Source of the DNA: an uncultured OCS116 cluster bacterium
GTDB taxonomy: Bacteria; Pseudomonadota; Alphaproteobacteria; Rhizobiales; TMED25
Assembly (NCBI GenBank): GCA_902632055.1
Contig: CACPAS010000014.1
Location: forward strand, 1-32,609
DNA: 32,609 bases
Reading direction: 5' to 3'
Part shown: in pieces, positions 22,194 through 32,609 of the stretch
Position numbering within the stretch: the stretch's first letter is position 1
Layout of the letters: each line of letters starts with the position of its first letter
Notes under the pieces: model-generated
What the model was told of the DNA's origin: nothing
Database searches by the model: none
Seen by the model: only the letters and a program-made list of their open reading frames with translations
Position numbers and translations under genes: made by a program

Positions 22194-22208
22194 ATGGGTA
22201 AGTATTGA
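22194..22208 (+). other. Four-codon open frame whose stop overlaps the hydratase start
   Basis: ATG GGT AAG TAT TGA, preceded by AAGGA with a 4-base gap, ends in TGATG so that its stop overlaps the hydratase ATG at 22208. The hydratase start has no strong Shine-Dalgarno sequence of its own, so this minigene could deliver ribosomes by re-initiation. It may also be coincidence. Confidence 0.25.
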
Positions 22209-23185
22209 TGACTAATCTTAAAATGGGACCGCATGATGTTGGCGGCGAGAAGTCCATTCCTATCGATGTAAATGATAAGGATATGACTCACTGGGAAAAA
22301 TTTGCAAATGCACTCCGCATTGTGGTCTCGTCGAAACGTATCATAACTTTGGATGAGCTCAGATACCATACAGAAGCCTTAGGCGATAAATATTTTGAGA
22401 TTGGTTATTTCGAAAGAAACTGCTTATCATTACATAATATTTGTATCCAAAAAGGTATTTATAGCCTAGATGATTTTATTAAAATAAGATCAAGAAAGAT
22501 TTCTGAATTCAATGTTCCAATTATTGAACTGCCTGATGTAAAAGACATTGAACACTTGCATAACGGAAAGCCACACAAGCATAGTGAGAAGGACTTCCAA
22601 GAAGATGAAAGTGGTGATGGTCCACCCGATTATTATTTTGATACACTTGCGATCGCTGAAATATTCGTAAGTAAAGGATTGATAACGAATGATGATATTA
22701 CCCTTAAAATTGAACAGTTTGATAACGTTTTCCCAAATAGAGGGAAAGCTGTTGTTGCGAAGGCGTGGCATAATGATTCATTCAAAAAGGAGTTAATACA
22801 TGATGCAAAAGCTGCCATATCTGATATTGGCATAGAGCTGGAGACTTTTGCTGATATTATATGCATGCCGCAAACAGACGAAGTTCATCATATTGTAGTC
22901 TGCACACTATGTTCATGTTATCCACGAACTTTACTTGGTATGCCACCTTCTTGGTACAAATCACGAAGTTACAGATCCCGAGTTGTACACGAACCACGTG
23001 AAGTATTAGCTGAATTTGGTACAATTGTACCTATCAATAAAGAAATCAAGGTTCATGACTCGAATGCCGACATGAGATATTTAATTCTACCACCAAGGCC
23101 TTCGAACACTGAAGGTTTATCCGAAATAGAATTATCAAAACTAGTGGCTCGAGATTACCTCGTTGGGGTAAGATTACCAAAGTAA
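22208..23185 (+). CDS. Fused beta-N/alpha subunit of a cobalt-type nitrile hydratase/thiocyanate hydrolase
   Basis: 325 residues from ATG 22208 (an adjacent TTG at 22205 would add one residue; positions below count that residue). Residues 8-95 match the N-terminal half of the beta subunit: GPHDVGGEKSIPI, THWEKFANAL and ITLDELRYHTEAL, where R53 aligns with the beta Arg that contacts the active-site cysteines in Rhodococcus nitrile hydratase (Arg56 there); GPHDVGGE...PI is particularly like thiocyanate hydrolase beta. A His-rich linker (HLHNGKPHKH, 117-126) follows. Residues 145-326 are a full alpha/gamma subunit: VFPNRGKAVVAKAW, VVCTLCSCYPR with metal ligands C233, C236, C238 (CTLC indicates the cobalt type), WYKSRSYRSRVV, PREVLAEFG, RYLILPPRPSNTEGLSE and ARDYLVGV. 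The reaction is hydration of a nitrile to an amide, or of thiocyanate to carbonyl sulfide and ammonia; sequence does not decide which. Confidence 0.88.
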   Translation: MTNLKMGPHDVGGEKSIPIDVNDKDMTHWEKFANALRIVVSSKRIITLDELRYHTEALGDKYFEIGYFERNCLSLHNICIQKGIYSLDDFIKIRSRKISEFNVPIIELPDVKDIEHLHNGKPHKHSEKDFQEDESGDGPPDYYFDTLAIAEIFVSKGLITNDDITLKIEQFDNVFPNRGKAVVAKAWHNDSFKKELIHDAKAAISDIGIELETFADIICMPQTDEVHHIVVCTLCSCYPRTLLGMPPSWYKSRSYRSRVVHEPREVLAEFGTIVPINKEIKVHDSNADMRYLILPPRPSNTEGLSEIELSKLVARDYLVGVRLPK

Positions 23186-23190
23186 TAGTT

Positions 23191-23475
23191 ATGGATACAA
23201 AATTCAAAATAAATGATGAAATAATCGTAGATATGAGGTCTTCGACTGGGCACTGCAGGACACCAGCATACATAAGAGGAAAAAAGGGTGTTGTTGAAAG
23301 AATTTGTGGCCAATACCCAAATCCAGAAGAGATCGCACTGTGCAAATCCAATCCAGAAATAATAACTCTATATAGATGCCGTTTTAAACAGGTGGATGTG
23401 TGGGATAATTATTCTGGTAAAGTTTCCGATACAATTGAACTTGAAATATATGAACACTGGCTTAAGAATGCATAG
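23191..23475 (+). CDS. Detached C-terminal SH3-like domain of the nitrile hydratase beta subunit (thiocyanate hydrolase alpha-like)
   Basis: 94 residues, starting 5 bases after the previous stop. FKINDEIIVDM opens the SH3-like barrel; SSTGHCRTPAYIRGKKGVVERICGQYPNPEE matches the beta-subunit block GHxRxPxYxRGKxGxI, and LYRCRFKQVDVWDNYSG with DTIELEIYEHWLKNA matches its end (Y-x-V-x-F-x-x-x-x-LW, then V-x-L-x-E-x-YL). R23 in GHCRTP aligns with the second beta arginine (Arg141 in Rhodococcus sp. N771 nitrile hydratase), which hydrogen-bonds to the oxidised cysteine. The domain matches only the second half of beta; the first half is fused to the alpha subunit in the preceding gene. It is presumably an essential part of the same enzyme. 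Confidence 0.82.
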   Translation: MDTKFKINDEIIVDMRSSTGHCRTPAYIRGKKGVVERICGQYPNPEEIALCKSNPEIITLYRCRFKQVDVWDNYSGKVSDTIELEIYEHWLKNA

Positions 23476-25514: not shown

Positions 25515-26054
25515 TTAGTTATATTTTGATAAGTGATAACCTTTTTCAGATCTATTTGCTGTATCAAAAAATTCGCCAAAGAGATGGATAAATAATTCAT
25601 CTAAATGCGGGCTAATAATTGAGGTTTGCGCTGGCCTGTAATCCTTTTCGTTTTCAATTTTTCCCCCAGATTGAATTATTGAAATTGCATGTGGTGTAGA
25701 ATTGAGAAAGTTATTCCTCTCATAGGTATCCTGATTATTAAAAAGATATACCTCTTTCAATGACAGAATTGCATCTTCTTTTTCCATCATAAGATCTCTA
25801 GTTTTTATGTGGGATATATCGCACATCAATATAATATTAATATCTGACTTCAGAGATCTGTTTGAACCCTTTACATCTATTAAATTTCTTACATCAGAAA
25901 TTTTTGATATCTGTTCAATATTAACTCTATAATCTTTATCATTTGCTTTATTAAAAATGAAGATATTATTCTTGCAACCTAAACAAAATTTCTTAAGATT
26001 TATCCTAAATTGATCTAATGTCTTTGGCGTCTGTATGTCCTTTATTCTTTGCAT
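25515..26054 (-). CDS. Hypothetical protein, no recognised family
   Basis: 179 residues, soluble-looking and without signal peptide or membrane helix. Visible features are an early CLGC pair (FCLGCKNN, about residues 24-27), a central INIILMCDISHIKTRDL stretch, and a conserved-looking end ISPHLDELFIHLFGEFFD. Codon choice resembles its neighbours, and there is no overlap with another gene, supporting a real gene. It lies about 110 bases upstream of the ybaK-like start on the same strand and 177 bases from the tctA stop. I do not recognise a family and give no function. Confidence 0.55.
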   Translation of the reverse strand: MQRIKDIQTPKTLDQFRINLKKFCLGCKNNIFIFNKANDKDYRVNIEQISKISDVRNLIDVKGSNRSLKSDINIILMCDISHIKTRDLMMEKEDAILSLKEVYLFNNQDTYERNNFLNSTPHAISIIQSGGKIENEKDYRPAQTSIISPHLDELFIHLFGEFFDTANRSEKGYHLSKYN

Positions 26055-26231: not shown

Positions 26232-27737
26232 CTATTGCTCTTTATTACTTTTTCTTTTGCGAACTTCAATATATGCAAACGTTACCAAAACTAAACATGT
26301 CAAAAAGAGTATTGATGCGGCTATTGGCCTTTGAAGTAATGCTGTTAGATTACCATCAACCATAACAAGACCCCTTCTCAATGATTCTTCTAAAATTTTT
26401 GCCAAAACGAAAGATAATAGCATTGGGGCAAGCGCTATATCAAGTTTTCTGAAAATATAACCAATTATACCAAACACAAACATTACCGCTAGATCAAAGC
26501 TACTTGTCTTAACAGAATAAGTGCCAACTACACAAAATGCTACTATCAAGGAATATAATAATGCCGGTGGTATTGTCAGAATTTTCATCCACCATTTCAA
26601 AGTTAACCTTCCAAATATATATAAAGTAAATGTCGCAAATAATACTGATATGAAAAGACCATAGATTACTTCCTTATGTTCTATAATTAGGAAAGGGCCG
26701 GGCTGTAACCCTTGCGCTATTAGTGCGCTCATTAATATTGCAGTTACAATATCTCCAGGTATTCCAAATACTAACATTGGAATCATAGCAGCGCCACAAA
26801 CGGCATTGTTAGCGGCCTCTGGAGCAAGAACACCATCTAAGGTTCCTTTGCCAAACTCCTCAGGTTTTTTTGAAGCCCTTTTTGCTAATCCGTAAGCAAC
26901 CCATGGAGATGTTTCTGAGCCAATACCTGGAAGAGCCCCTATAAATGTACCTATTAAAGAGGATCGTATAATAGTTCTCAAATGTTTAGATATTATTTTA
27001 ATGTTATCTTTTAAGCTGGTGAGATAAACATTATCGCTTATACTCGTTACCTTTGATATTGGTCCAAATTTTTCAATTTGAATAAGCACTTCGGTAATGC
27101 CAAATAATCCAGTAACTAATGCGATAACATTTAATCCACCTTGGAGATGAAGAATTCCAAATGTCAATCTAGGAGTTCCACCTAAAGGATCTGTTCCAAT
27201 TAAAGCGAATAATATTCCCAAAGTTGCCGCCAGAACCCCCTTTGCTAATGATCGCCCGGAAACATAGCATATCATTGTTAGAGAGAATAAAATTAGTGCA
27301 AAAAATTCTAATGGCCCAAATTTAATTGCGATTAGAGCAAGTGCTGGCGCTCCAAAAATAAGTGCAACCGTTCCAAAAAAATCTCCAACTAAGGAAGCAT
27401 GTAGAGCACCTAGAATGGCGTCCCCAGCCTTTCCCTGTTTTCTCATTTCATAGCCATCTAATAGAGTGGCCGCATTTGCCGCAGTTCCAGGCGTACCTAT
27501 CAAAATTGCTGATACAGATCCACCAAAGGTTCCTCCTTTAAATAGACCAATTAGAAAAGGTATGCCTACCAAAGGGTGAACAAAAAATGTAAAAGGAGAT
27601 AACAATGCCATACCCATAGTTGCGCTAAGCCCAGGTATTGCCCCTATCATAAGACCAACTATCGTACCTAATGATATTGCAATTAGAGTTTTTATATTAA
27701 AAACGAGAATTGCAGCTTGTATTAAATCTTCTATCAT
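26232..27737 (-). CDS. tctA: TctA family permease, large membrane subunit of a tripartite tricarboxylate transporter
   Basis: 501 residues, the usual TctA length, with about eleven to twelve membrane helices. The N-terminus has TIVGLMIGAIPGLSATMGMALLSPFTF and YKGGTFGGSVSAILIGTPGTAANAATLLDGY-like sequence (GLFKGGTFGGSVSAILIGTPGTA), and the second half repeats it as GTFIGALPGIGSETSPWVAYGLAKR with GVLAPEAANNAVCGAAMIPMLVFGIPGD. These paired G-x-x-PG motifs define the TctA family. It is the transmembrane carrier of a Na+- or proton-driven, binding-protein-dependent uptake system for carboxylates or related small acids. It is last in the order tctC-tctB-tctA, 12 bases after tctB. Confidence 0.95.
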   Translation of the reverse strand: MIEDLIQAAILVFNIKTLIAISLGTIVGLMIGAIPGLSATMGMALLSPFTFFVHPLVGIPFLIGLFKGGTFGGSVSAILIGTPGTAANAATLLDGYEMRKQGKAGDAILGALHASLVGDFFGTVALIFGAPALALIAIKFGPLEFFALILFSLTMICYVSGRSLAKGVLAATLGILFALIGTDPLGGTPRLTFGILHLQGGLNVIALVTGLFGITEVLIQIEKFGPISKVTSISDNVYLTSLKDNIKIISKHLRTIIRSSLIGTFIGALPGIGSETSPWVAYGLAKRASKKPEEFGKGTLDGVLAPEAANNAVCGAAMIPMLVFGIPGDIVTAILMSALIAQGLQPGPFLIIEHKEVIYGLFISVLFATFTLYIFGRLTLKWWMKILTIPPALLYSLIVAFCVVGTYSVKTSSFDLAVMFVFGIIGYIFRKLDIALAPMLLSFVLAKILEESLRRGLVMVDGNLTALLQRPIAASILFLTCLVLVTFAYIEVRKRKSNKEQ

Positions 27738-27749
27738 TATCTTGCCATC

Positions 27750-28235
27750 TTAAAAAAATAATCCTTGTGGTAAATTTACATGTAGTCCGTATCTGAATAT
27801 TATACGTAATAAAATTGCAACTAATATTGCGGTAGATATGCTAACTAAAAGATTTCGATAGCCGCCAATATAACTAACAGATACAACAAAGATTATTGTT
27901 GATACTACATATCCAAAATATAAGATGCATATTAAATAAATAAAAATTCCAATTGAACCATAGATAACTTTAAGGTAATCAGATTTTGGAGTTGTTAAAG
28001 CCGGAAGAAGGGACTTGCCTCTTAAGGGGACGGTTACAATTAAATTTAATGCTGATAAACAAATCAAAATTGAAGCTAAGCGCGGGAAAAAAACTGGCTC
28101 TAGAGCAACATCAGTTGTGCCAGGAATTGTGAACGCCCAGCCTCTTACAAGGCTGGGAGAATATAAGAAGAGTAATACACCCGTAATGAATACAATTATT
28201 GCGAATGCAGACTCAATTTTACGTCCACTAGACAT
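27750..28235 (-). CDS. tctB: TctB family small membrane subunit of the tripartite tricarboxylate transporter
   Basis: 161 residues with four hydrophobic segments, the size and topology of TctB. The N-terminal SAFAIIVFITGVLLFLYSPSL, the FFPRLASILICLSALNLI block (family F-P-x-x-x-x-x-x-L) and a late double helix ending in RIIFRYGLHVNLPQGLF match the family pattern, in particular the closing F-x-x-x-L-x-V-x-LP-x-G. It partners TctA in the membrane; its exact role is poorly known. It lies 17 bases after tctC and 12 before tctA in the direction of transcription. Confidence 0.9.
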   Translation of the reverse strand: MSSGRKIESAFAIIVFITGVLLFLYSPSLVRGWAFTIPGTTDVALEPVFFPRLASILICLSALNLIVTVPLRGKSLLPALTTPKSDYLKVIYGSIGIFIYLICILYFGYVVSTIIFVVSVSYIGGYRNLLVSISTAILVAILLRIIFRYGLHVNLPQGLFF

Positions 28236-28252
28236 TGGCGAAAATACAATTC

Positions 28253-29236
28253 CTAATTAGCCAAAGCAGCTCTTAGCAATTCGCCAGCATTTTCCCAGTC
28301 GTTTTCATACGCTTCAGCGAATCCATCAACAACAAAAGTAGTGGGATCCTGTAAGGTCAACTCAAAAGCCTTTAAGAGAGCTGGATCTTCCTTAATGCCA
28401 TTCAGCGCATTTTGAAGTACGCTTACTTTGTCTGCTGATAACCCCGGAGGTGCATATATCGCAACAGATGAACCAGCTATAACATTGTATCCCAATTCTT
28501 TCATTGTTGGAACATCAGGAAATTGAGCTAGCCTTGAGTTAGCGGCAACTGCTATTGGAACTAAATCTCCAGCTTCAACGTAACCTGCAATTTCACCAGC
28601 ATCATCAAAGAAAAGGTCACCTTCACCTGCTAAAATAGCGCGCATTTTTGGGCCACCACCCCCGTGAGGGTTCCATTTGAAATTATCAGGTGAGATTCCA
28701 GCTTCTTTTAATAGCAATAGCCATCCATAATGGTCTGATGTTGCAATATCTGAAATTTCAATAGGCATACCATCAGCGCTTGAGGCGGCCGCTATAAAGT
28801 CATCCATTGTTTTAAAACCAGTGTCTGCTCCAGCGGTCATTATCCAAGGAACAAATGATACCTGTGCAATTGGAGTGAAATCAGAAGCGCCAAGGTCAAG
28901 GCCTTGTGCGATTGGAGCTATAATTGCACCACCATTATCGCATATCGCTAAATCATACCCATCCGGATCAGCAGCTGTAATGTATTGCATCGCAACTGTT
29001 CCAGAACCACCTGTAACATATTGCGGTAATAGAGACTGATCTAAATATTTAGACGCAACTCTCTCAACCATTCGCAGGTTTCTATCAACGCCACCACCCG
29101 GAGGGTAACAGGCGGCTATACTGATCGGTCTATCAGGATATACCCCAGCATCAGCATTTGTAGAAAATGCAGGGATAGTAAATATTGATAGAACAAAAAC
29201 GAATGATAAATATTTTGAAATATTAAAAATTTTCAT
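28253..29236 (-). CDS. tctC: TctC family periplasmic solute-binding protein
   Basis: 327 residues. The N-terminus YLSFVFVLSIFTIPAFSTNADA is a signal peptide. The mature start YPDRPISIAACYPPGGGVDRNLR corresponds to the family's YPxxPI-x-x-x-x-x-PPGGxxD-x-x-xR, and ADPDGYDLAICDNG, FTPIAQVSF, GGGGPKMRAILAGEGDLFFDDAGEIAGYVEAGDLVPIAV and FPDVPTMKELGYNV follow in the usual order. It captures a small ligand, typically a carboxylate, for TctAB. AGGAGA stands 6 bases before the ATG. The triple-RidA gene lies upstream on the same strand after a 188-base gap, so this operon probably has its own promoter. Confidence 0.94.
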   Translation of the reverse strand: MKIFNISKYLSFVFVLSIFTIPAFSTNADAGVYPDRPISIAACYPPGGGVDRNLRMVERVASKYLDQSLLPQYVTGGSGTVAMQYITAADPDGYDLAICDNGGAIIAPIAQGLDLGASDFTPIAQVSFVPWIMTAGADTGFKTMDDFIAAASSADGMPIEISDIATSDHYGWLLLLKEAGISPDNFKWNPHGGGGPKMRAILAGEGDLFFDDAGEIAGYVEAGDLVPIAVAANSRLAQFPDVPTMKELGYNVIAGSSVAIYAPPGLSADKVSVLQNALNGIKEDPALLKAFELTLQDPTTFVVDGFAEAYENDWENAGELLRAALAN

Positions 29237-29424: not shown

Positions 29425-30804
29425 TCATTTAAAACCAATGGCTTCTATTTGTATCCGAGCACTATAATCCGGGGCTGGATTTGGAATGATGATGCATTCT
29501 AACGCAGGAAATCTATCTTTTTGAACAAATTCGGCAAATATATTTGCAAAAGTCTCAAAATCTGCATTTTCTTTTAGATATATGGATATTTTTACTAAGT
29601 CATCTATCGAGCTGCCTGCCTGATCTGCAACTTTCTTAAGCGTATCTAAAGCTTGCCACGTTTGTGAAAATAATTGTCTATCAGATTGTAATAATTTATT
29701 TAATTTGTTATTTAGGTTTAAGATACTTGGATTATTTAAACTATCTATAATTGATCCTGAATTGTCATATCCACACATACCAGAATAAAATATTAAATTA
29801 TTCGTTACAGTTGCTGCTGGTGCATTAAATGGCGCATCAATAGGCCACTCCACATTTTCTATTTGTTTATCTTTGTTACGTTTTACTGCAGTCAATTCTA
29901 TTTCAATTAGACACCCTCTGTGCCCTACTTCAGAAAAACCAATCACGCTTAATGCGGGCTTCTTATTTGGGAAGAAATATTCATGAATCCTATGAAATAC
30001 GGAAAAATCTCTAATATCAGTTAAATAAACTGTAGAGTTTATGGTATCTGATAGTTCCAAACCGTGACTCTCCAAGGTTCTTTTTAATTCATTATATGTG
30101 TACCAGGCTTGGGCAGCTATTGGCCCATCTCTGCTATCTGGATGACTGCGCCCTGTCGCTAAAAACCGACCTTCTTCTGGTATATCCTCAAAACCCATAA
30201 CAACAGGCTTGCCTTTTGTTGACGTTTTAATTGGAATATGACCTGCTGTGAAAACCAAATCTCCGGTTTTTACAGCTTGGGAATAAAAGCCAGCAGATGG
30301 TAATTTCTTGTCATCTAATTTTGTAATTACTTCTCTTTTTGGATAATTGGAATCTTCATCTAAGCAGACAGCAATTGCATCAATACCTATTGTACCAATA
30401 TCATCACCAAAAACAGTTTCAACACCCACTCCTGAGCTAGGAGCAGGAACCTCTTGGACTTTTTTCCTAATATTCTCATATGCGGGAAAGAATCTTTTGT
30501 CTCTTTGCCACATATGCTGTCTTAGTATTTGGGTGCTATTGCTGTTACATAGATTTAGTAAATTCTCTAGCGCTGCATGAGTATGCCATGCATCATAACA
30601 AACTTGTGACTCCATTTTGTCCACCAGTGAGAAGCCTTGCTGTTTATCAGTAGCATTAACTGGAAGTTCGGAGAAATCTCTTTTAACATTTGTAGGCTGT
30701 GGACGTACACCAGATGTGAATACAAGCCCATCACATTTAATGGCATTTGGAAAACCAAAAAAGCCTTGTTTTTTTTGGTCAATAAAAATCTGGTGTTTTT
30801 TCAT
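29425..30804 (-). CDS. Three tandem RidA (YjgF/YER057c/UK114) domains in one protein
   Basis: 459 residues made of three RidA-like domains, at about 1-150, 160-308 and 320-459. Each begins with a strand like GLVFTSG / DLVFTAGHIP / NLIFYSGMCG, continues with a helix (QAWYTYNELKRTLESHG; QTWQALDTLKKVADQAG) and a D-x-x-x-STVYLTDIRDF or VKISIYLKENADF segment, and ends with an IEIELTAV / IQIEAIGF strand. In active imine deaminases the stretch FPAR carries the catalytic Arg. Here the aligned positions are Pro122 (PAPSS), Leu285 (PALSV) and Leu435 (PALEC), so all three lack it. No signal peptide, so cytoplasmic. RidA trimers normally form from single-domain chains; this chain may fold as a pseudo-trimer. 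Its neighbour is the Tct transporter. Confidence 0.87.
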   Translation of the reverse strand: MKKHQIFIDQKKQGFFGFPNAIKCDGLVFTSGVRPQPTNVKRDFSELPVNATDKQQGFSLVDKMESQVCYDAWHTHAALENLLNLCNSNSTQILRQHMWQRDKRFFPAYENIRKKVQEVPAPSSGVGVETVFGDDIGTIGIDAIAVCLDEDSNYPKREVITKLDDKKLPSAGFYSQAVKTGDLVFTAGHIPIKTSTKGKPVVMGFEDIPEEGRFLATGRSHPDSRDGPIAAQAWYTYNELKRTLESHGLELSDTINSTVYLTDIRDFSVFHRIHEYFFPNKKPALSVIGFSEVGHRGCLIEIELTAVKRNKDKQIENVEWPIDAPFNAPAATVTNNLIFYSGMCGYDNSGSIIDSLNNPSILNLNNKLNKLLQSDRQLFSQTWQALDTLKKVADQAGSSIDDLVKISIYLKENADFETFANIFAEFVQKDRFPALECIIIPNPAPDYSARIQIEAIGFK

Positions 30805-30928: not shown

Positions 30929-31273
30929 GTGCGGTGTAGGTGGGAGTTTTCTTCAGGAGATGTTATTTTCTGTTTTAGCATAACCTACCGTCGTCCACCT
31001 TTTAATGTTCCTCAGTATTCACAATACCAATTCTTTCTCTATGAAACAATCACTGAACAAAGAAAAAAAGGAAAGACCTTTGACCAAATAGCAGAGTGGT
31101 TAAATGAAAAAGGGTACCTATCTGTGCGTGGAAAGAAGTTCAAAGGTAATCATGTTCATTCAATTGTTAAGAAGAAAAGACTAAAAAATGAAAAGTTAGA
31201 AAGAATTTATCCAGAAGTTCGTTCTGATTTTAGTTTGGAGGTAGTTGATAAGACTTTGGTAAATCTGATTTAA
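30929..31273 (+). CDS. Short recombinase-domain-like DNA-binding protein, start uncertain
   Basis: About 100-115 residues. The middle FFLYETITEQRKKGKTFDQIAEWLNEKGYLSVRGKKFKGNHVHSIVKKKRL reads like the helical 'recombinase' domain next to the catalytic part of large serine recombinases (G-x-T-x-x-x-IA-x-x-LN-x-x-G-x-x-x-x-RGK-x-F-x-x-x-x-V-x-x-ILK), but no resolvase catalytic domain is present. It is either an independent small DNA-binding protein or a remnant. The GTG at 30929 begins an odd, cysteine-rich leader with no ribosome binding site. AGGAG at 30955-30959 stands 5 bases before an in-frame ATT at 30965, giving a start closer to the conserved part. No ATG is available in frame. Confidence 0.6.
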   Translation: MRCRWEFSSGDVIFCFSITYRRPPFNVPQYSQYQFFLYETITEQRKKGKTFDQIAEWLNEKGYLSVRGKKFKGNHVHSIVKKKRLKNEKLERIYPEVRSDFSLEVVDKTLVNLI

Positions 31274-31667: not shown

Positions 31668-32609
31668 CTATTCCACAGTTACAGCTTTTGCAAGGTTCCT
31701 CGGTTGATCAATATCCGTTCCCCTTAATTTTGCAACGTGATAAGCCAAAAGCTGGAGCGGTATAGACATAATGATAGGTATATTCAATTTACCACTAACC
31801 TCAATATTAATTCCGGTCAATTTCAAATCTTTTAGTTGATCGTTTTGAGCCTTGCCCACAAGGATAATCTTTCCCCCTCGCGAATATACCTCATTCATAT
31901 TAGATAGGTTTTTTACGTAGAATATATCATCAGGAGCCAAAACAATCACCGGTAGCTTCTTATCTACCAAAGCTATTGCGCCATGTTTGAGTTCACCTGA
32001 TGCAATACCTTCAGCGTGTATATATGAAATTTCTTTTAACTTTAATGCCCCTTCGAGAGCTAGTGGTAATGTTGCACCGCGTCCAATAAATATTGCACTC
32101 GATGATTTGTGGATATCTTTTGCGATCTTTTTAATATCATTTTCATACTTCAGTACATCCAAAACTTGACTTGGTATGTGGACCAGTTCCTCTATAAGAG
32201 CTTTCTCTTGTGATTCATTAATGTGCCTTTTTTTCTTTGCCAGAAATAATACCAAGCTTGCCAGGGTTGCTAGCTGGCATGTGAATGCTTTTGTCGAGGC
32301 TACGCCAATTTCCTGGCCAGCAAATATTGGCAGCACAAGGTCTGACTCCCTTGCGATAGTTGACTCTACTGTATTGACAACAGAAACTATTTTTTGACCG
32401 TTCTCCTTTGCATGACGAAGTGCTGCAAGTGTGTCAGCAGTTTCCCCTGACTGTGAAATAAATAAGGATAGAGATTTATTGTCGAAAAACATTTTTTTGT
32501 ATCGAAACTCAGATGCAATATCAAGGTCTACCTTCATATTGGCTATATCTTCAAACCATGACTTTGCTACCATCCCTGCAAAATATGCAGTTCCACATGC
32601 AGAGATAAT
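31668..32609 (-). CDS. glmS: GlmS, glutamine-fructose-6-phosphate aminotransferase (C-terminal part, 5' end outside window)
   Basis: The frame runs off the right edge; 313 codons are present, corresponding to the isomerase part with two SIS sugar-phosphate-binding domains. SACGTAYFAGMVAK at the edge, FISQSGETADTLAALRHAK, SVVNTVESTIARESD, AGQEIGVASTKAFTCQLA, FIGRGATLPLALEGALKLKEISYIHAEGIASGELKHGAIALVD and the terminal RGTDIDQPRNLAKAVTVE are all GlmS signatures. The C-terminal decapeptide that closes over the active site (DQPRNLAKAVTVE) is intact. It makes glucosamine-6-phosphate for peptidoglycan and lipid A. The N-terminal glutaminase domain is not visible here. Confidence 0.96.
   Translation of the reverse strand: MISACGTAYFAGMVAKSWFEDIANMKVDLDIASEFRYKKMFFDNKSLSLFISQSGETADTLAALRHAKENGQKIVSVVNTVESTIARESDLVLPIFAGQEIGVASTKAFTCQLATLASLVLFLAKKKRHINESQEKALIEELVHIPSQVLDVLKYENDIKKIAKDIHKSSSAIFIGRGATLPLALEGALKLKEISYIHAEGIASGELKHGAIALVDKKLPVIVLAPDDIFYVKNLSNMNEVYSRGGKIILVGKAQNDQLKDLKLTGINIEVSGKLNIPIIMSIPLQLLAYHVAKLRGTDIDQPRNLAKAVTVE

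Follow-up and report, generated by a model that had tools for sequence, protein, structure and literature searches.

The window analysed here, a contig of 32,609 nucleotides (G000:C14) from the 1.03 Mb, 77% complete assembly of an uncultured OCS116 cluster bacterium, carries a gene whose product strings three Rid domains together in a single chain of 459 residues (3x-Rid), with the three genes of a tripartite importer, tctC, tctB and tctA, lying downstream of it (Table 1). The initial annotation had placed this open reading frame exactly, leaving its strand unstated, and had read the product as three RidA domains in one chain, which was borne out both by Pfam, with PF01042 found three times (2e-34, 118.6 bits versus a cut-off of 27.3), and by a Rid profile that was derived from 18 homologues of one domain each and with which the domain limits were set. 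Membership of the chain in the Rid superfamily follows from the PF01042 cut-off being passed and from the RidA fold of the model for domain 2, domains 1 and 3 being assigned by sequence only. In addition, the chain matches the profile of other triples over positions 68-422 of 425 with 125 bits. Domain 1, at 16 bits, is the most diverged copy, yet its similarities mark it as a genuine Rid copy, because it matches domain 2 of the orthologue at locus L009 with an E-value of 1e-6; within the window protein itself, BLASTP relates domain 1 to domain 2 at an E-value of about 1e-4. PF01042 is the sole family over its cut-off in the chain, in which Pfam found no DNA-binding, kinase or other output domain, and no signal peptide was seen by eye. 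An artefactual fusion through a lost stop codon was rejected, as the protein has 459-462 residues in all six cases known from five genomes.

Table 1. Position of the 3x-Rid gene, its domains and two pocket codons, the tct genes and neighbouring features within the window
Feature	Position	Strand	Basis and remarks
Nitrile hydratase genes	22205..23475	plus	Alpha chain (PF02979) fused behind beta N-terminal domain (PF21006); beta C-terminal domain (PF02211) in a separate ORF
179-aa ORF	25515..26054	minus	Downstream of tctA; no family over cut-off (Pfam)
tctA, large membrane subunit (PF01970)	26232..27737	minus	Pfam over cut-off
tctB, small membrane subunit (PF07331)	27750..28235	minus	Pfam over cut-off
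tctC, periplasmic solute-binding protein (PF03401)	28253..29236	minus	Pfam over cut-off; downstream of 3x-Rid gene
3x-Rid gene, 459 aa	29425..30804	minus	ORF and Pfam
Rid domain 3, residues 330-457	29434..29817	minus	Profile 1.2e-17; Arg position L435
Rid domain 2, residues 170-309	29878..30297	minus	Profile 5.9e-31; Arg position L285; pocket Y174, G188, H271, H295, E301
Leu285 codon	29950..29952	minus	Alignment; in place of Arg105 of TdcF/RidA
His271 codon	29992..29994	minus	Alignment; in place of Asn88 of TdcF; invariant 6/6
Rid domain 1, residues 1-146	30367..30804	minus	Profile i-E 3.3e-6, 16 bits; Arg position P122 (or S123)
114-aa ORF	30929..31273	plus	Recombinase domain (PF07508) only, no catalytic domain of a large serine recombinase; adjoins Rid cassette
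GlmS, C-terminal part	31668..32609	minus	Frame open to the window's last base; listed start 32573 is not the gene start

The order Rid-tctC-tctB-tctA, with the Rid gene directly upstream of the three transporter genes, is kept in five of the six loci that hold a protein of the window type, namely in the window and at L009, L010, L011 and L033, while L081 has the Rid gene only. Three of these cassette loci share with the window 57-69% identity in Rid, 77-86% in TctC, 55-68% in TctB and 82-91% in TctA. The linkage does not stem from a genomic background that stayed fixed, because the flanks differ between loci: the six flank genes of the window (glmS, the recombinase fragment, a small membrane protein, the 179-aa ORF, a ybaK-like gene and EamA) were found in none of L009, L010, L011, L033 and L081, the flank stretches compared being of different lengths. 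The sixth protein (L081, genome G833) lies divergent beside a branched-chain-type ABC importer, the solute-binding protein of which is assigned to Peripla_BP_6 by Pfam. Besides Rid, the four-gene cassette contains neither a catalytic gene nor a regulator. Solved Bug/TctC proteins, including some that bind terephthalate, are similar to TctC, which points no further than to a carboxylate as a plausible ligand. Elsewhere in the window, the nitrile hydratase genes listed in Table 1 are arranged unusually, with the beta C-terminal domain (PF02211) encoded by a separate 94-aa ORF; a glyoxalase-family gene and an EamA transporter come next.

The column of the catalytic arginine was assigned by alignment with E. 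coli RidA and TdcF, and it is occupied by L285 in domain 2, by L435 in domain 3 and, depending on gap placement, by P122 or S123 in domain 1, where no alignment puts an Arg. The replacement of this residue in all three domains, as claimed in the initial annotation, therefore holds, and it extends to all 18 domains of the six window-type proteins. K114, K115, K281, K282, K429 and R431 are the only basic residues that fall within eight positions of these columns, and R431 is not conserved among the orthologues. In TdcF, Asn88 orients Arg105. Seven conserved residues make up the cleft of that protein, Tyr17, Gly31, Asn56, Asn88, Arg105, Pro114 and Glu120 (PMC1884159), and the residues at the corresponding positions are F18, G32, A78, E110, S123 (P122), G133 and G140 in domain 1, Y174, G188, E239, H271, L285, G294 (with H295 adjacent) and E301 in domain 2, and A328, G342, T388, A420, L435, P445 and Q452 in domain 3. 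The pocket Gly is kept in all three domains, the Tyr and the Glu only in domain 2, and the Asn in none (E110, H271, A420). His295 lies at or next to the Pro114 position, with the alignment putting G294 there and H295 one residue off, and both H271 and H295 are invariant across the six proteins. Since both members of the Asn88/Arg105 pair are replaced, by His and Leu, and these two histidines never vary, the site of domain 2 looks remodelled, not broken. Mutation of the arginine abolishes deamination in RidA and RutC (PMC4433059, PMC8113886), and together with the loss seen here this supports the earlier suggestion that the protein is unlikely to be an enamine/imine deaminase.

Structure prediction was informative for domain 2. 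A full-chain AlphaFold model from four rows (the window and L009-L011) was too poor for use (pLDDT 31.6, pTM 0.27), and relatives in viral contigs that could deepen the alignment numbered zero. The AF2 model of domain 2, for which the nine alignment rows covered every domain of the window, L009 and L010 proteins, reached a pLDDT of 74.2 and a pTM of 0.76 and was the only usable RidA-fold model obtained. Its best match in Foldseek was 3lyb (E 5.6e-12); VIA-align 2 superposed it on 3lyb_D with a Z of 16.3 and an rmsd of 2.2 over 126 residues at 31% identity, and VIA-align on TdcF (2uyj_C) with a Z of 12.7.

The 3x-Rid gene is maintained by purifying selection and is not decaying, because whole-gene dN/dS came to 0.10, 0.16 and 0.09 in three close pairs of G832, G833 and G834; these values and the intact frames in all six cases led us to reject a pseudogene. 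Of the 459 positions, 167 are the same in every one of the six proteins, most densely in domain 2 (86 of 152), followed by domain 1 (55 of 160) and, as the least conserved, domain 3 (26 of 147), which is also the fastest, with a dN between the window and G832 of 0.40 versus 0.12 for domain 2. Judged by this pattern of conservation, the functional burden is on domains 2 and 1.

The window-type 3x-Rid is rare and patchy, because searches of family, class and phylum gave six proteins in five genomes. Among 14 genomes of its own family these are the window and G012; the family of G832, of which 61 genomes were searched, adds G832, G833 (two copies) and G834, the fourth match there, G874, carrying other types. 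No further window-type protein was found in 385 genomes of the class, which returned our own and another type in G372, nor in 398 genomes of the phylum, which returned our own and two 3lyb-like Rids. Three full-length relatives are labelled SAR116 cluster alphaproteobacteria, and by similarity (69% identity) the window would belong to the same broad group. The other triples fall into several types, Q being from the window's genome and four congeners, R and S from G832/G874, T from G372, U from G153, and V from Vibrio plasmids and G526. The number of Arg-bearing domains per triple is three in Vibrio, two in R, one in Q, S and T, and zero in U and the window type; in the G526 triple, as read from its translation, the position is Leu in the first domain and Arg in the other two, so that the Vibrio and G526 triples keep the Arg in three and two domains, whereas the window type keeps it in none. 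When the Q, S, T and U triples were combined into a profile, it matched 96 of the 398 phylum genomes; among the stop-free matches, only those in G000 (two chains) and G526 had frames of at least 400 residues, nearly all others being of single-domain length. Among plasmids, P0001 as query matched 96 records, but in no case over 80% of its length; the Q-type paralogue matched 12, three of them, all from Vibrio, over 80%, and the G372 triple matched 725, again with none reaching 80%. In a tree of 51 domains, from which four near-identical chains (12 domain rows) had been dropped beforehand as redundant, the first, second and third domains of the window type each form their own clade (support 100/100, 100/99 and 100/97), whereas the three Vibrio domains cluster together (100/100), and the triple therefore arose at least twice. 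The deep forks of this tree are weakly supported, and the link between domain 2 and 3lyb reaches no more than 88/85.

Related 3x-Rids that have the Arg in one domain (Q, S and T) are likewise found in uptake loci. The Q type adjoins a single Rid and an ABC system whose binding protein is of the SBP_bac_11 type; in the window's own genome, where this is a second uptake locus (G000:C18, L032:3288-9136), a 427-aa 3x-Rid, in which domain 2 alone has the Arg, and a 150-aa single Rid, which reads PAS at that position, flank the solute-binding protein, the ABC ATPase and the permease, an arrangement kept in four congeners, one contig being cut at its start. The T type in G372 stands beside an NMT1-type ABC system, and the S type beside genes for a Bmp-type solute-binding protein and an isochorismatase-family protein, in a locus that also holds R. 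At that locus in G874 (L082:8521-13078), two different 3x-Rid genes enclose the Bmp-type protein and the isochorismatase-family hydrolase, with a Rieske oxygenase and a molybdopterin dehydrogenase close by, so that the locus looks like a nitrogen-heterocycle catabolic cluster. The nearest families to the G874 isochorismatase are biuret amidohydrolase and RutB, but its scores of 53 and 48 bits lie far under their cut-offs of 370 and 378. The R type in G832 has an EamA gene and an FMN oxidoreductase as neighbours. By inspection, no importer was seen near the U (G153) or V (G526) triples, and transporter linkage is hence not a general trait of 3x-Rids.

Tandem Rid triples have been named '3x-RidA' and are presumed to be covalently linked trimers (Niehaus 2015, PMC4433059). 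As such, 3x-RidA proteins, for example EF_0115 of Enterococcus faecalis, likewise place three tandem Rid domains in one chain; they are described as a RidA subset, and the passages of PMC4433059 consulted do not describe Arg-less or transporter-linked triples. The nearest solved relative of domain 2 is 3lyb (KP1_3112, a putative endoribonuclease of Klebsiella pneumoniae; E 1.5e-20), which like domain 2 has a long loop before helix 1 and is also without the Arg (PVS in the alignment), but differs from the window protein in being a single domain and in replacing the Arg by Ser instead of Leu; a homologue of 3lyb, L039, has Ser at the Asn88 position, where the window type has His271. Rid4-Rid7 are, like the window type, devoid of the catalytic Arg, and no deaminase activity was found for them, but they are single-domain proteins. 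The Arg is changed to Trp in Rid4 and Rid7 and is variable in Rid5 and Rid6 (PMC4433059), and the function of Arg-less Rid domains is given as unknown in the Rid literature (PMC4433059). RutC, from the pyrimidine operon of E. coli, is a Rid protein that serves in a catabolic pathway and not in damage repair; unlike the window protein, it is a single domain in which Arg104 is present and needed (PMC8113886). The Toblerone fold of AtzD, TrzD and Bar likewise holds a YjgF-type trimer in one chain, there with a new enzymatic function. AtzD, a YjgF trimer concatenated into one chain, has its active site moved into the barrel (PMC3758960) and works with Ser-Lys dyads and a metal site.

We propose, with moderate confidence, that the 3x-Rid of the window acts in the cytoplasm as a Rid-fold protein, probably a pseudo-trimer, and that it processes an imported solute in a remodelled cleft and is not an enamine/imine deaminase. 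The three domains would most likely pack like the subunits of a RidA trimer, and the protein might serve the tripartite importer TctABC as its partner inside the cell, binding and chemically processing the solute that enters through it, or its first intermediate; that 3x-Rid would act on this solute is suggested by the conserved Rid-tctC-tctB-tctA cassette. Its chemistry would not be classical enamine/imine deamination, because the Arg that grips the carboxylate is gone from all three domains, a loss seen in the sequence, the consequence of which is taken from the published mutants. Fusion may have let the three copies diverge, such that the working cleft would be on domain 2, where Tyr174, Gly188 and Glu301 are kept and His271 and His295 are new, with domain 1 as its likely partner and domain 3, given its conservation, in a mainly structural role.

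It is possible, if somewhat unlikely, that the protein is a ligand sensor or buffer, by which the solute is bound in at least one cleft and signalled or stored with no catalysis. This would agree with the strict transporter linkage and the absence of any other enzyme from the cassette, as well as with Arg-less Rid domains having no known deaminase activity (PMC4433059, PMC8113886); however, the chain has no output domain, the cassette has no regulator, and related 3x-Rids stand among catabolic enzymes, namely the isochorismatase-family hydrolase, the FMN oxidoreductase and the Rieske oxygenase. We consider it unlikely that the protein is still an enamine/imine deaminase in which one cleft holds the carboxylate by a shifted Arg, such as R272, R296, or R219/R225 in the loop of domain 2, although these four residues are invariant in all six proteins and R272 and R296 adjoin pocket positions. 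The initial annotation had raised the matter of a shifted Arg in each cleft, and conservation speaks against this in domain 3, which has no invariant Arg and in which Q452 replaces the pocket Glu; in domain 1 R95, R104 and R113 are invariant and could serve, as could R213, R219, R225, R242, R272 and R296 in domain 2. Against a retained deaminase also stands TIGR00004, the NCBIfam model of Rid hydrolases, the cut-off of which (106.25 bits) is reached neither by the window protein (105) nor by three relatives (98, 79.7 and 82.1), while the Vibrio triple scores 255.8; in addition, a separate single-domain Rid with the Arg (L006:1486-1917) in the window's genome could do that job. No PF02423 was found in that genome.

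A second invention of a Toblerone-like enzyme, in which the fused domains would use the central barrel to open a nitrogen ring like cyanuric acid hydrolase, appears unlikely to us as well. AtzD offers the precedent of a barrel active site in a concatenated YjgF trimer (PMC3758960), R95, H97 and W99 of domain 1 are invariant on a strand that has Lys/Thr/aromatic residues in RidA, and two related 3x-Rids adjoin the G874 isochorismatase with its distant similarity to biuret amidohydrolase and RutB; but Pfam listed no match of the chain to the AtzD/Bar family at E-values up to 1, an absence that is not proof, and no Toblerone-fold chain was among the 50 VIA-align matches listed for the domain 2 model, which excludes nothing. 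That a former 3x-RidA is drifting as a relic after loss of the Arg is extremely improbable, for even though several pocket residues went with it and domain 3 evolves fastest, the low dN/dS of the whole chain, the six intact frames and the 86 invariant residues of domain 2 speak against decay.

If 3x-Rid indeed processes the solute of TctABC, we may speculate, very tentatively and with clear reservation, that fusion of a Rid trimer led to specialisation of its clefts, that the Arg chemistry was dropped and that one asymmetric site, formed by the two new invariant His of domain 2 or by the barrel, came to perform a new reaction on this solute, which would make it the second independent case, after cyanuric acid hydrolase, of a concatenated Rid trimer turned into a new enzyme. 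Tandem Rid triples and single-domain Arg-less Rids are already known; new is a coherent clade of 3x-Rids that lack the Arg in 18 of 18 domains and are linked to tct genes in five of six loci, and our searches of the open-access literature found no Arg-less, transporter-linked 3x-Rid in print. As the ligand of TctC provides a short-list substrate for the 3x-Rid protein, the question of Arg-less Rid function becomes testable, and the series of three, two, one and zero Arg across the 3x-Rids would show how a symmetric active site is relaxed and re-used after fusion. G811 (L049:5691-13264) offers another candidate system for learning the function of Arg-less Rids: there a 3lyb-like Arg-less Rid lies between a cytosine-deaminase-like amidohydrolase and a creatininase-family gene, and genes for an ABC importer of the NMT1 type and for an FAD-binding oxidase come after this trio.
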